This document shows, in pieces, positions 8,997-17,834 of a stretch of DNA of 32,200 bases. The first letter of the stretch is position 1. Every line of letters starts with the position of its first letter. The DNA comes from Myxococcales bacterium. GTDB lineage: Bacteria > Myxococcota_A > Polyangia > Polyangiales > Polyangiaceae. The stretch lies in NCBI GenBank assembly GCA_005800325.1, contig SYFR01000272.1, positions 1-32,200 on the forward strand. Direction: 5' to 3'. A model generated the notes under the pieces. The model worked only from the letters and a program-made list of their open reading frames with translations. It did not search any database and was not told the DNA's origin. The translations under genes were made by a program, and so were the position numbers.

Positions 8997-10601
8997 CTAC
9001 GTCGTCGCGTTGAAGAGCGGCAAGGACCGGCCGCGTGGCTCGGCACCGCGACGGGTCGACGCGCGCGAGCGGGCCGCGTCGGTGAGCGTGGCGCGCAGCG
9101 AGTGCTTGTAGGCCTCGACGACGACGACCTCGGCCACCTCGCCCACGAGCGCGAGCCCGGCGGCGCCTTCGACGTGGACGATCTCGTTCCGCTCGCTGCG
9201 GCCGGTCAGGTTCTCGGGCCGCGTCTTGCTCGGGCCCTCGACGAGCACCTTGAGCTCGTGACCGACGAGGCTCTCGAGGTGGCTCTTCTGTTGGCTCTCG
9301 CTCACGGCGAAGAGGCGCTCGAGTCGCGACGCCTTCTCGGCCTCGGGCACGTCGTCGGCGAGGCGCAGGGCCGGCGTGTTCGGTCGCCGCGAGTATTTGA
9401 AGCCGAAGATCCCGACGAAGCCGACGCTCTTCACGAGCGCGAGCGTGGCCTCGAAGTCCTCGGCGGTCTCGCCCGGAAAGCCGACGATGACGTCGGTCGA
9501 GAGGGTTATGCCCGGCACCGTGGCGCGGAGGCGGGCGACGCGGTCTTCGTACTCGGCGCGCGTGTGCCTGCGGATCATACGCTTGAGGACGCGGTCGCTG
9601 CCCGACTGCACCGGCAGGTGGACGTGCCGCGGCAAGAGCGCGAGCTCGCGGTGCGCGGCGATGAGCGAGGGCGTGAGGTGGCGCGGGTGCGGGCTCGTGT
9701 AGCGCAAGCGCACCAGTTCGGGGACCTCGGCGGCGATGAGGCGGAGCAGCGCGGCGAACGCGCTCTCGTCGGGATCGTTCAGGTCGGCCTCGGGCGCGAG
9801 CGACAAGCTCCCTGAGGGATCGCGGTAGCTGTTCACGGTCTGACCGAGCAGCGTGACCTCGCGCACGCCGCGCGACACGAGGCTCGCGATCTCGGCGACG
9901 ACCTCCGCGCTCGGGCGATAGCGCTCGGGTCCGCGCGTATATGGGACGACGCAGAACGAGCAGCGCTCGTTGCAACCCTTCATCGTGGTGACGAACGCCG
10001 TCGGACTCGGGCTCGCGCCGCGCTGCCCGGCGAGACCCTGCCCGGCGAGACCCTGGCCAGCGAGACCCTGCCCAGCGAGACCCTGGCCACCGAAACCCTG
10101 GCCACCGAAACCCTGGCCACCGAAACCCTGGCCAGCGAGACCCTGGCCAGCGAGACCCTGGCCACCGAAACCCTGGCCACCGAAACCCTGCGCGGACAAG
10201 AAGCGTGGCGCATCGACGTCGAACACGGTGCGCACGATCGGCGGCGCTCCGAGGCGGAGCTCGGCGAGCAGCTCGGGCAGCTCGGCGGCGTTGTCGGGAC
10301 CGAGCACGAGATCGAGCTGTGGAAACCGCTCGAGGAGCTTCCGGCCTTCTTGCTGCGCCATGCACCCCGCGACGACGATGAGGAGCTCCGGCCGCTCGCG
10401 CTTGAGCTTGCCGAGCCGGCCGACCTCGCTGCGCAGCTTCTGCTCGGCCTTCTCGCGGACGCTGCAGGTGTTCACGACGACCACGTCCGCATCGCTCTCC
10501 GCGGACGCGCTCGCGCCCGCGCCGACGAGCAGCTCCTCGATGCGCTCGGAGTCGTGGCTGTTCATCTGACAGCCGAAGGTCGTCACCGAGTAGCGGAGCA
10601 T
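8997..10601 (-). CDS. miaB: tRNA-2-methylthio-N6-dimethylallyladenosine synthase MiaB with repeat insert
   Basis: The 534-residue radical-SAM methylthiotransferase adds a methylthio group to i6A37 of tRNAs reading UNN codons. The N-terminal UPF0004 domain has TTFGCQMNSHDSERI and Cys 11, 46 and 80 for the auxiliary 4Fe-4S cluster. The radical-SAM motif GCNERCSFC supplies Cys 210, 214 and 217. A TRAM domain closes the protein (about residues 440-510). Normal MiaB is about 440-475 residues. The excess is mainly a Gly-rich insert at 138-192, eleven pentapeptides QG(FG/LA)G, placed exactly in the linker between the first two domains. All catalytic cysteines are intact. ATG 10601 begins directly at the domain (LRYSVTTFGCQ). 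Confidence 0.93.
   Translation of the reverse strand: MLRYSVTTFGCQMNSHDSERIEELLVGAGASASAESDADVVVVNTCSVREKAEQKLRSEVGRLGKLKRERPELLIVVAGCMAQQEGRKLLERFPQLDLVLGPDNAAELPELLAELRLGAPPIVRTVFDVDAPRFLSAQGFGGQGFGGQGLAGQGLAGQGFGGQGFGGQGFGGQGLAGQGLAGQGLAGQGLAGQRGASPSPTAFVTTMKGCNERCSFCVVPYTRGPERYRPSAEVVAEIASLVSRGVREVTLLGQTVNSYRDPSGSLSLAPEADLNDPDESAFAALLRLIAAEVPELVRLRYTSPHPRHLTPSLIAAHRELALLPRHVHLPVQSGSDRVLKRMIRRHTRAEYEDRVARLRATVPGITLSTDVIVGFPGETAEDFEATLALVKSVGFVGIFGFKYSRRPNTPALRLADDVPEAEKASRLERLFAVSESQQKSHLESLVGHELKVLVEGPSKTRPENLTGRSERNEIVHVEGAAGLALVGEVAEVVVVEAYKHSLRATLTDAARSRASTRRGAEPRGRSLPLFNATT
10026..10190 (-). repeat. 11 x 15-bp minisatellite inside miaB
   Basis: Two unit types alternate in blocks, GGTTTCGGTGGCCAG-like (FGG) and GGTCTCGCTGGCCAG-like (LAG). 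In protein order they run F F L L F F F L L L L. Units differ mostly at three positions. GGT and GCT codons, rare in neighbouring genes, dominate, which points to recent slippage or unequal-crossover amplification. Every unit is 15 bp, so copy-number changes keep the frame. Confidence 0.95.
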
Positions 10602-10689: not shown

Positions 10690-11673
10690 ATGCGCGACGT
10701 GCGCGCGTTCGCGGTGCTGTTGTTGTCATGGGGCCTCGGTCCCAGCGCGTGCGACGAGCATCGCGACGACAAAGGTCCGGCTGCGTCGTCGGCGTCGCCT
10801 CCCGCCGCGAGTGGAGCCCCGGCCGGGAGCGCCAGCGAAAGCGAGAGCGAGAGCGCAGCAGCCCGAGCGGCGAGCCCAAGCGAGAGCGCCGCAGCCCGAG
10901 CGGCCAACGCAAGCGAGAGCGCAGCAGCCCCTTCCGCCAGCGGCAGCCCAAGCGAGAGCGCTCACGCGGGCGAGCCTCCCCTCGCCTGCCCTCCCGACAT
11001 GGCGCTCGTTCTTGGCGCGTTCTGCCCGGTGAGCTCGCAGCCGTGTCTCGAGAAGCCGAAGGTGCTCGGCGGCCCCGGGCACCTCCCCTGCCAGCGCTAC
11101 GCCGAGGCGCGCTGCCTCTCCAAGACGCGGACGGCGATGCGCTACTGCATGGATCGCTACGAGTGGCCGAATCAGAAGGGCGAGCTCCCTCGGACGCTGA
11201 CCTCGTGGCCCGAGGCCGCGCGCTTCTGTGTATCGGCCGGCAAGCGCCTCTGCACCGCAGACGAGTTCACCTTCGCGTGCGAGGGCGAGAGCATGAGAGC
11301 CCACGTCTATGGCAATGAGCGCAGCGCGGAGATCTGCAATGCCGATCGGCCGTACATCGCGCGCACTTACGACTACGAACCATGGGACGCGTGCCACAAG
11401 AAGCCCGCGTGCAAGGCCGAGCTCGCGCGACTCGATCAGCGCCTACCCGCCGGCGCCAAGCCCGAGTGCGTCTCGGAACACGGCGTCTTCGATCTCAACG
11501 GCAACGTGAACGAGTGGGTCGTTCGCACCGATCAGAAGAGCCCGCACCGCTCGGGGCTAAAGGGCGGCTGGTGGGGGCCGGTCCGCAATCGCTGCCGCCC
11601 GATGACCACCTTCCACCTCGAGGGCGATTACGGCTACGAGCAGGGCTTTCGCTGCTGCAAGGCGGCGGGCTGA
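10690..11673 (+). CDS. FGE-sulfatase/SUMF1-domain lipoprotein
   Basis: The protein has 327 residues. The signal peptide ends in a lipobox (LGPSAC, Cys 21), so it is lipid-anchored. Residues about 25-95 form a low-complexity Ser/Glu/Ala linker with repeated SESAAARAA blocks. The C-terminal FGE-like domain carries CPPDMALV, CMDRYEWPN, KRLCTADEFTFACEG, GVFDLNGNVNEWV, SGLKGGWWGP and GFRCCKAA. It is Cys-rich and parallel to the secreted protein at 1587-2345. The linker probably extends the domain away from the membrane. Catalytic formylglycine generation is not shown by anything visible. It is divergent from miaB across an 88-bp gap, and GTTAGG sits just before the ATG. Confidence 0.8.
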   Translation: MRDVRAFAVLLLSWGLGPSACDEHRDDKGPAASSASPPAASGAPAGSASESESESAAARAASPSESAAARAANASESAAAPSASGSPSESAHAGEPPLACPPDMALVLGAFCPVSSQPCLEKPKVLGGPGHLPCQRYAEARCLSKTRTAMRYCMDRYEWPNQKGELPRTLTSWPEAARFCVSAGKRLCTADEFTFACEGESMRAHVYGNERSAEICNADRPYIARTYDYEPWDACHKKPACKAELARLDQRLPAGAKPECVSEHGVFDLNGNVNEWVVRTDQKSPHRSGLKGGWWGPVRNRCRPMTTFHLEGDYGYEQGFRCCKAAG

Positions 11674-11689: not shown

Positions 11690-13015
11690 TCAACCGGCGG
11701 TGCCGATGCAGCCGAAGAGCACCGAGATCTTCGCGGCGGAGTCGGCCTGCACCGTCTTGCATGCGTCGGGGCACAGCTTGATGAGCTCGCCGTCGAGATA
11801 GAACTTCTCCGGGCCGCACTCGGCGAGGCTCGCTACTAGCGCAAAGTTCACCGGCGCCCCCATGCCGGGCATGTACTTCACGACGATGGTCTCGAGGTTG
11901 AGCTCTTCGCCAGGGGGCGGCGCAGGCAACGGGAACTCGCAGCTCACCGAGGCACCTTGGACCACGCCATTGGCGATCTCGTTGAACATGCTGTCGTAGT
12001 GAGCGAGCTGGCAAAGCGGAAAGCGCAGCGCCTCGGTCTTGACGCTGAGCGCCTGATAGCCAGTTCCGCCGTTGACCGCCGATGAACACTTTGCGGTCGT
12101 GATCATGTCCGCCGGCTGCCAGGGGACCTCGGGCATCTGGAGATCCTTCTCCTGGATCCCGTCGATGCTGTACCAGCGGTAGCGGCGTTCCATCGCCGTG
12201 CCGAACTGCTCGGGCGAGAGCGCCAAGAGCGCGGCATCGAACTTGTCCGCAGTCGCCTGCCCCCCGACGACGGTGTTCTTGTCGTCGTAAAGGACGCCGC
12301 CGAAGCTGCAGTTGGCGCGGTCGTCGGTGACGACGACGAAGAACTTGATCGCCTCGGGCCGGAGCCACTCTTGATAGCCCATCGGCGCGAGGTTGTGCTC
12401 GTCCGCCTTCGCGTAGCTCTCGAGCGTCTTGCACAGGGGGTTGGTGCTGCCGATCTCGGTCGAATAGTGGAAGAACTTGGGAGGGTTGTTGACAGGCTCA
12501 CTTGGCGGGGGCGTGCAATCGCCTTGGGGAATGCCGCTGAGCGGCGCCTCGAGGCACACCGACTGGTTCCCGCTCGCCGAGCCGTGGCGTGCGATCAGGA
12601 TGACCCGGTAGTCGATGCCGCTCGCCTCGATGATCTTGGCGAAGCTCTCGTTGATGTTCTTTTCAACGCCCTGGATCTCGTTCGTCATGCTGCCGGAGTT
12701 GTCGATGACGAAGAGGATGTCGACTGGCGCTTTCACGAGCGTCGCCTCGGCCTCCTGCTGCGCGCACGTGTCCATCCCGCCGGCGCCGACGCTGCCCGGG
12801 CCCGAGCTGCCCGCGCCCGAGCCGCCCGCGCCGACGAAGGTGCCAGTGCTTCCCCCGACGCCGGCCTGCGCGCCGCTGCCGGCCTGCTGTCCGCTCGTAG
12901 CCGGCCCGTCGGCGGTCGACGAACCGCACGCGACCATAGCCGCAAGCGAAGCGAGCTGCAGCGCGGTGGAGAAGGCCGTCTCGCCGACGCGGCGCCCCGG
13001 TGACTTGATACGCAT
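11690..13015 (-). CDS. VWA-domain lipoprotein
   Basis: The protein has 441 residues. The signal peptide ends in a lipobox (LAAMVAC, Cys about residue 30). A Gly/Ser/Ala linker follows to about residue 80, then a von Willebrand A domain with an intact MIDAS start DILFVIDNSGSM and a later FFVVVTDDRANCSFGG. Many Cys residues lie in the second half (CKTL, CSSA, CEFPLPAP, CPDACKTV), suggesting disulfide-stabilised extracellular structure. VWA domains bind protein ligands through a metal ion. This architecture is common and uncharacterised in myxobacteria. ATG 13015 gives a normal signal; an upstream in-frame start at 13048 would add 11 residues. Only 16 bp separate its stop from the convergent FGE lipoprotein. 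Confidence 0.85.
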   Translation of the reverse strand: MRIKSPGRRVGETAFSTALQLASLAAMVACGSSTADGPATSGQQAGSGAQAGVGGSTGTFVGAGGSGAGSSGPGSVGAGGMDTCAQQEAEATLVKAPVDILFVIDNSGSMTNEIQGVEKNINESFAKIIEASGIDYRVILIARHGSASGNQSVCLEAPLSGIPQGDCTPPPSEPVNNPPKFFHYSTEIGSTNPLCKTLESYAKADEHNLAPMGYQEWLRPEAIKFFVVVTDDRANCSFGGVLYDDKNTVVGGQATADKFDAALLALSPEQFGTAMERRYRWYSIDGIQEKDLQMPEVPWQPADMITTAKCSSAVNGGTGYQALSVKTEALRFPLCQLAHYDSMFNEIANGVVQGASVSCEFPLPAPPPGEELNLETIVVKYMPGMGAPVNFALVASLAECGPEKFYLDGELIKLCPDACKTVQADSAAKISVLFGCIGTAG

Positions 13016-13073
13016 GGCCGGATGGGAGCATGCGACAAGGCGCACCACAAGTGGGCCATGTGCTCAGCCGCCG

Positions 13074-13213
13074 GGGCTTCGGGCTTCGGGCTTCGGGCTT
13101 CGGGCTCCGGGCTTCGGGCTCCGGGCTTCGGGCTCCGGGCTCCGGGCTTCGGGCTCCGGCCTTCGGGCTCCGGGCTTCGGGCTCCGGGCTCCGGGCTTCG
13201 GGCTCCGGGCTTC
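13074..13213. repeat. 20 x 7-bp tandem array (GGGCTTC/GGGCTCC)
   Basis: Twenty consecutive heptamers fill the gap between the VWA lipoprotein (start 13015, leftward) and the pepP stop (13216-13218). Units are GGGCTTC or GGGCTCC, with one GGCCTTC at the thirteenth position. The array stops 2 bp before the pepP stop codon. Because 7 is not a multiple of 3 it shifts frame every unit, and all frames stay open, so long reading frames through it are artefacts. Confidence 0.95.
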
Positions 13214-13215
13214 GG

Positions 13216-14616
13216 CTAGCCGCCGCCGACGAGCTGCTCGATGGCGCGGGCGTCCTTGGGCACGAGGGCGGAGAGCACTTCGTTGCCCGCTTCGGTGATG
13301 AGCACGTCATCCTCGATGCGAATGCCGCGCACGTCGGCGAAGCGCGCGAGGACATCGCGGCGCAGATCGTCGCCGAGCGGCTCGGTGCGCCGCGGATCGC
13401 CGAGGATCCCGGGGACCTGATAAAACCCTGGCTCGATCGTCACGCACATGCCCGGCGCGAGCTCGCGGTCGAGCCGCAGGTAGCCGTCGCCGAAGCGCGG
13501 GCTGCGCGTGCGGCCGGGGGCGTAGCCGGCGCGATCGCCGAGATCCTCGAGGTCGTGCACGTCGAGGCCGAGCAGGTGGCCAATGCCGTGCGGAAAGAAC
13601 AAGGCGGCGGCGCCCCGCTCGAGGAGGCCGTCGACCTCGCCGCGAAAGATCCCTAGACGTGCGAGCCCCTCGACGATGGCGCGCTTGGCCGCTTCGTGAA
13701 CGTCGCGGTAGCGCCGCCCGGGCTTCGCGACCGCGAGCGACGCGTGCTGCGCGGCGAGCACGACGTCGTAGATCGCGCGCTGCGTCGAAGTGAACGTGCC
13801 GCTCACCGGCCAGGTGCGGGTGATGTCCGCAGCCCACCCCTCGGGCGTCTCGCCGCCGACGTCCGCGAGCAGGAGATCGCCCGCGAGGGCCGCGTGGTCG
13901 TAGCGATCGGAGTGGAGCACCTCACCGTGCGTCGTGACGATCGGTCCGTAGGCGTCGTCGAGCCCGGACGCGCGGAGCACGGCGATCATCGCCGCGAGCG
14001 TCGCGAGCTCACTGCCACCGACGCGAGTCGCGCGCATCCCCGCGACGTGGGCCTCCGCGCTCACGCTCGCGGCGAACCGAAGCTGCGCGATCGCGGCCTC
14101 GTCGTGCACGAGACGCAGCGCGATCATGGCCTCGGCGAGCGCCGCGTCCACGGCCTCGGTGAGCCGGGCGCCGCTGCCGCGCTCGACCTCGCGCCCGAGC
14201 CGCAGGGAGAGCCAGGCCGCGCTCGCCGCGTCTTGCGGCGGCAGCGTAGCGACGCTGCCACGGTGCGGGGACAGCGCCAGGTCGAGCTCGTCGAGCGGCC
14301 GCACCGCGTCGAACTCGAGCTCATCGCGAAGCTGCGCGAGCGCGGGCCGCGGCCCATGCCAGAGCGCATCGTCGGGATCCGGCGGGTGCGTGAAGAGCTC
14401 GGCGCGACCGTCCACGAAGAGCAGCGCGGAGCCGGCGAGGTGGCGACCCGCGAAATACGCAAAGTGGCTCGTCGCACGGAACCGATAGCGATTCGCCGGG
14501 TAATTACGGCTCGGCGCCTCGCCCGCCGCGATGAGGGCCGGGCCCGACAGGCGCGCCGAGAGCGCGCGCCGCCGCGCGAGGAGCGCCGACGCCGGGGTCG
14601 AGGGAGCGATGGGCAT
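13216..14616 (-). CDS. pepP: Xaa-Pro aminopeptidase (M24B)
   Basis: The 466-residue metallopeptidase is predicted to release N-terminal residues preceding proline, in the cytoplasm. The N-terminal creatinase-like domain (about 1-180) includes PANRYRFRATSHFAYFAG. The pita-bread catalytic domain carries the five metal ligands in order: Asp in LLADVGGE, Asp in AADITRTWPVSG, His in FPHGIGHLLGLDVHD, Glu in VTIEPGFY and Glu in GIRIEDDVLIT. Length and order match PepP. ATG 14616 starts just before the domain. The next leftward gene, the VWA lipoprotein, begins 200 bp downstream, mostly filled by the heptamer array, so the two are probably not tightly coupled. Confidence 0.92.
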   Translation of the reverse strand: MPIAPSTPASALLARRRALSARLSGPALIAAGEAPSRNYPANRYRFRATSHFAYFAGRHLAGSALLFVDGRAELFTHPPDPDDALWHGPRPALAQLRDELEFDAVRPLDELDLALSPHRGSVATLPPQDAASAAWLSLRLGREVERGSGARLTEAVDAALAEAMIALRLVHDEAAIAQLRFAASVSAEAHVAGMRATRVGGSELATLAAMIAVLRASGLDDAYGPIVTTHGEVLHSDRYDHAALAGDLLLADVGGETPEGWAADITRTWPVSGTFTSTQRAIYDVVLAAQHASLAVAKPGRRYRDVHEAAKRAIVEGLARLGIFRGEVDGLLERGAAALFFPHGIGHLLGLDVHDLEDLGDRAGYAPGRTRSPRFGDGYLRLDRELAPGMCVTIEPGFYQVPGILGDPRRTEPLGDDLRRDVLARFADVRGIRIEDDVLITEAGNEVLSALVPKDARAIEQLVGGG

Positions 14617-17436: not shown

Positions 17437-17490
17437 CGAAGTGGCCTCCGAATGATGAAAAACCGGCCTTCGTCAACCATACGGGCCTCC

Positions 17491-17610
17491 GCGACAATGC
17501 GCCACTATTCGCCATTTGTGGTCGACGGCTGAGGGTCACGCCGTCGCTCCGCGACGATGCGCCACTATTCGCCAATTGTGGTCGACGGCTGAGGGTCACG
17601 TCGTCTCTCC
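17491..17610. repeat. 60-bp tandem duplication with two operator-like dyads
   Basis: Copies 17491-17550 and 17551-17610 match at 56 of 60 positions. A degraded third start (CGATGCG) follows at 17614. Each copy contains an imperfect palindrome (17502-17521 and 17562-17581, CCACTATTCGCCAATTGTGG in the second). They lie 60 bp apart between divergent transpeptidase and mcp genes. The rest of the gap (17611-17834) shows nothing recognisable. Confidence 0.85.
17562..17581. promoter_or_regulatory. Candidate operator dyad
   Basis: CCACTATTCGCCAATTGTGG is symmetric at 16 of 20 positions. A related copy at 17502-17521 is symmetric at 14. The spacing of 60 bp is close to six helical turns, which would put both sites on one DNA face. 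No regulator is identified. Confidence 0.35.
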
Positions 17611-17834
17611 ACGCCGATGCGACACGGCCTCGCTCGAACCGGAATCCCCCGAGAGGGTCTGGGCCGGGTCTGGGCCCCAGCCCCGCTCGCCACCGGCACG
17701 GGCAACGGGCGCGAGGGCCGGAATCGAGCTCTTCCCGCGACCCCTTGACGACCCGGAGGGGGCGCCTACCTCGGGTGTCCGCGCCGCGAGCCGCTGAGCC
17801 GCGTCGCAGTCGTTCTTCATGGGGGCTGGTTGAA

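Follow-up and report, generated by a model that had tools for sequence, protein, structure and literature searches.

A pentapeptide-encoding minisatellite in the linker between the two cluster domains of a Polyangiales MiaB

The miaB gene of a Polyangiales draft genome carries eleven contiguous 15-bp units between the regions encoding its first two domains, adding a 55-residue insert of repeat origin to a highly conserved Fe-S tRNA-modifying enzyme. The insert is very probably an ordinary intragenic minisatellite of a repeat-rich lineage, retained where the protein tolerates a loop and serving no function specific to MiaB. The gene lies within a stretch of 32,200 nucleotides (the window), which is part of contig C218. 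The draft from which it comes comprises 551 contigs and 4.36 Mb and is 67.6% complete. The features of the gene, with the evidence for each, are as follows.

8997..10601, minus strand, ATG at 10601: miaB (tRNA-2-methylthio-N6-dimethylallyladenosine synthase), 534 aa, by Pfam, alignment and fold match
10302..10598, minus strand: UPF0004 (MTTase) domain, residues 2-100, the auxiliary cluster side, by Pfam
10026..10190, minus strand: tandem array of QGFGG and QGLAG, residues 138-192, by sequence, disordered in the predicted model
10011..10025, minus strand: post-array residues QRGAS, CAGCGCGGCGCGAGC, by sequence compared with congeners
9438..9992, minus strand: radical SAM domain, residues 204-388, by Pfam

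Judged from its sequence, the open reading frame is a complete MiaB with no sign of a broken gene. Together with a TRAM domain at residues 443-505 (Pfam), the domains stand in the order UPF0004, radical SAM, TRAM, as MiaB requires. The six cluster cysteines, namely C11, C46 and C80 and those of the CxxxCxxC motif (C210, C214 and C217), are invariant in a 45-sequence alignment of this MiaB and 44 relatives. In phmmer searches, a solved MiaB is matched with an E-value of 9e-83, versus 3.4e-43 for RimO, and the predicted fold likewise matches MiaB 7mjw (Z 46.5 at 1.7 A) better than RimO 4jc0 (Z 39.3 at 2.4 A). Most likely, the enzyme retains its activity, and ms2i6A37 is made as usual.

Read in the direction of the gene (10190 to 10026), the array consists of eleven units that follow one another without indels and encode (QG[FG/LA]G)11. 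There are two main unit types, CAGGGTTTCGGTGGC encoding QGFGG (F) and CAGGGTCTCGCTGGC encoding QGLAG (L), which are separated by two linked base differences and are arranged in the order F F L L F F F L L L L. Silent variants (GGC to GGG and GCT to GCC) are found in three L units on the 3' side of the array. The array has a Tandem Repeats Finder (TRF) score of 231, while the best score among 30 trinucleotide shuffles of the window was 72, placing the tandem units well above chance. Thus, the original prediction of eleven exact 15-bp units encoding a Gly-rich linker at the UPF0004/radical-SAM junction is borne out by the sequence and the Pfam domains. Directly after the array, CAGCGCGGCGCGAGC opens with CAG as the units do and agrees with a unit at 8 of 15 bases, and this segment may mark the edge where the first duplication arose.

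The codons of the array are also atypical, as had been predicted. Among 151 likely genes sampled from the same genome, GGT accounts for 6.9% of Gly codons and GCT for 4.9% of Ala codons, so that both are rare, whereas the array uses GGT for 16 of 27 Gly and GCT for 4 of 6 Ala. In the remainder of miaB the corresponding counts are 5 of 30 and 0 of 51. This excess over genome usage fits the copying of one chance unit. A search of the genome allowing up to three mismatches found the MiaB unit at the array locus only, and a mobile repeat with array copies genome-wide was therefore rejected. A phase-variable contingency locus was likewise ruled out, as a 15-bp unit within an open reading frame keeps the frame at every copy number.

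Comparison with relatives indicates when the array arose. Four congeners (G001-G004) encode MiaB proteins that are 72-76% identical to this one, and the nearest by MiaB and MrfA identity is G003. From the first cysteine motif to the radical-SAM motif there are 199 residues here versus 144 in all four congeners, and the difference of 55 is exactly 11 x 5. At the DNA level, the 15-bp units number zero in these congeners, which have a short variable stretch at this site, for example FLTAPSIASGRPTAF. The array, on this sequence comparison, is recent in origin and missing from close relatives. The predicted recent, block-wise expansion agrees with the lack of units in the congeners, the atypical codons, and the runs of identical units with diverged units at the edge. 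More widely, the distance between the motifs is 141-152 residues in most Polyangiales and 145, 155, 162 and 171 residues in four Polyangium species (L070, L042, L046 and L045, respectively), the longest of which holds an internal duplication, DDGGSAPTSGAT...DDGGSAPKSGAT. Since linker length varies across genera, the site appears to tolerate inserts in general.

As the source is a fragmented and incomplete draft, an error of metagenome assembly, affecting either the array itself or its copy number, has to be considered. Arrays do trouble the assembly, given that 26 of 158 contig ends fall inside arrays with a score of at least 80, versus 2.4% expected from the array share of bases. However, the MiaB array is in frame and does not lie at an end of its contig, which is at least 32 kb long, and the longest sequence repeated exactly within the array spans 44 bp. 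Short-read assemblers normally use word sizes that exceed this length, so the path through the array should be unique. An assembly error is accordingly very unlikely, and the copy number of the MiaB array is probably correct. For other loci the caution is greater, because contigs break at uniform arrays and the unit numbers of those arrays are lower bounds; the draft is broken at arrays, and its gene set is probably depleted as a result. If this holds more widely, drafts of array-rich genomes should be read with this warning in mind.

It had been predicted that the spacing of the auxiliary and radical-SAM clusters could be tuned by copy number, and the position of the array at the domain junction and its flexible, Gly-rich composition speak for this. 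On such an account, unit number would act as a slow analogue dial, setting the mobility or distance of the cluster domains and hence the level of ms2i6A37, and the 15-bp repeats of Escherichia coli tolA offer a case in which unit number matters (PMC3477136). An AlphaFold2 model was built from the 45-sequence alignment, using a program that leans to the known family fold. The model has a mean pLDDT of 86, with most of both domains at about 90 or more, residues 141-195 below 50 and the array at 20-40. It matches MiaB 7mjw over 435 of 441 residues (model residues 1-509, both domains together; Z 46.5, rmsd 1.7 A). The repeats are thus modelled as a disordered loop on the outside, with the two domains packed as in the solved MiaB. 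With the packing kept and the array forming a disordered loop, the length of the array need not set the distance between the domains. The tuning claim is therefore unsupported by the predicted model, which keeps the solved packing, though a prediction cannot show a dynamic open state. In addition, relatives manage with zero units, and the occurrence of comparable arrays across many unrelated genes and in intergenic DNA of the same genome speaks against a role specific to MiaB. Taken together, tuning by unit number is improbable.

These other arrays place miaB within a genome-wide pattern. A TRF survey of the window's genome (G000) covered 81 contigs (L119-L158, L219-L258 and the window; 0.63 Mb) and found 102 arrays with a score of at least 100, whose units are of unrelated sequence and often 12-18 bp in length. 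A period of 15 bp is the commonest, followed by 18 bp, and 93 of 117 arrays with a score of at least 80 have periods divisible by three. At a score of at least 100, there are 156 arrays per Mb in G000 and 225 in G003, compared with 61 in G001, 41 in G004 and 38 in G002. Three further arrays were found by TRF in the window.

13074-13215: intergenic array of about 20 copies of a 7-bp unit, GGGCTTC
17487-17625: array of a 60-bp unit, between genes
10846-10930: array of a 33-bp unit, in a Ser/Ala/Glu-rich stretch of an FGE-sulfatase-like protein

The 7-bp array takes up almost all of the space separating two minus-strand genes, at 11690-13048 and 13216-14616, the latter aminopeptidase P-like. The FGE-sulfatase-like gene is divergent from the adjoining miaB.

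With gene frames around the arrays picked by codon-position G+C, and hence approximate, arrays fall in unrelated proteins that include the tail of RNase R, LarC, an MrfA-like helicase and a methyltransferase protein. A ferredoxin-linked oxidoreductase ends in seven copies of NDGP at its C-terminus, and TolB (L155 5289-6923) has eight copies of SILQKA ahead of its signal peptide, an array absent from the three congeners with a TolB match. From its location upstream of the signal peptide, the TolB repeat could affect export. In the MrfA-like helicase, the linker site that holds a His/Glu/Asn/Ala repeat in G000 (L227 8020-10569) is occupied in G003 (L262) by an Ala-Asn-Gly repeat unrelated to it, a pattern that points, from the sequences, to repeats having expanded independently at a single tolerant position. 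The unrelated sequences in many arrays suggest separate expansions at many places, with the need to keep the frame selecting the survivors within genes. A literature search on minisatellites of myxobacteria or the Polyangiales turned up nothing relevant.

One explanation for the abundance of arrays is a mutator lineage, in which loss of mismatch repair lets arrays grow. A search for the C-terminal MutS1 domain was positive in the three array-poor congeners and negative in both array-rich genomes, G000 and G003, and MutL was not found in the incomplete G000 genome. However, both array-rich genomes are incomplete, G000 has the N-terminal part of MutS running off a contig end, and MutL is present in G003. 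Furthermore, deleting mutS in E. coli has no significant effect on the 15-bp units of tolA (PMC3477136), and a mutator origin is judged to have little chance of being correct. As a separate observation, the mutS gene of G000 holds an in-frame tandem duplication of 57 bp (2.3 copies, L267 2665-2793) near its cut-off at the contig end. Growth driven by hairpins, with units folding back and the polymerase slipping, is scarcely credible. The MiaB unit does contain an inverted match (CCAG...CTGG), but the units of 37 arrays fold no better than shuffled sequences (mean z +0.33, 4% below -1), and those of MiaB have z values of -0.2 and -0.6.

A broader proposal is that a process in the G000/G003 lineage seeds and expands arrays of 12-18 bp at hundreds of loci, housekeeping enzymes included, making many linkers continuously variable, of which MiaB would be one visible case. 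This proposal is rather unlikely as it stands. If true, it would provide a natural system with fast evolution of linker length in many proteins simultaneously. Arrays are unusually dense in the host genome of the MiaB insert, and the array density of the lineage merits a further look.

In the favored reading, that of an ordinary minisatellite, a short piece of the naturally variable linker between UPF0004 and radical SAM would have been duplicated by slipped replication or by recombination between short matches. Later duplications of one or several units would then have led to eleven copies. The 15-bp unit keeps the frame, and the enzyme can tolerate a Gln/Gly-rich loop of 55 residues because the linker lies on the outside of its fold. 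A genome-wide tendency of the lineage would build arrays of 12-18 bp wherever selection allows. The MiaB array would be neutral, as far as the single genome of this species indicates; alternatively, the QG..G pattern kept in all eleven units could reflect selection for a soluble, flexible linker.

Among known systems, the repeats of E. coli tolA are proposed to change by a process of the same kind. Contraction of these in-frame 15-bp repeats occurs at 6.9x10^-5, depends mostly on RecA and is faster without uvrD (PMC3477136). In both genes, in-frame 15-bp units encode pentapeptide repeats whose number can change without a frameshift (PMC3477136). However, TolA is a cell-envelope protein whose repeats are known to vary between strains, while the present array is a disordered Gly-rich loop in a radical-SAM tRNA-modifying enzyme, seen in one genome. 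The Bacteroides MiaB (PDB 7mjv-7mjz) shares the domain order, the six cluster cysteines and the fold, but lacks the 55 residues inserted here between UPF0004 and radical SAM. Bacterial VNTRs and minisatellites resemble the MiaB array in their tandem units, in recent block duplication and in having close relatives without the array. Unlike those, the array described here comes from a single genome in which array density is high, with about 160 strong arrays per Mb versus 38-61 in three congeners.
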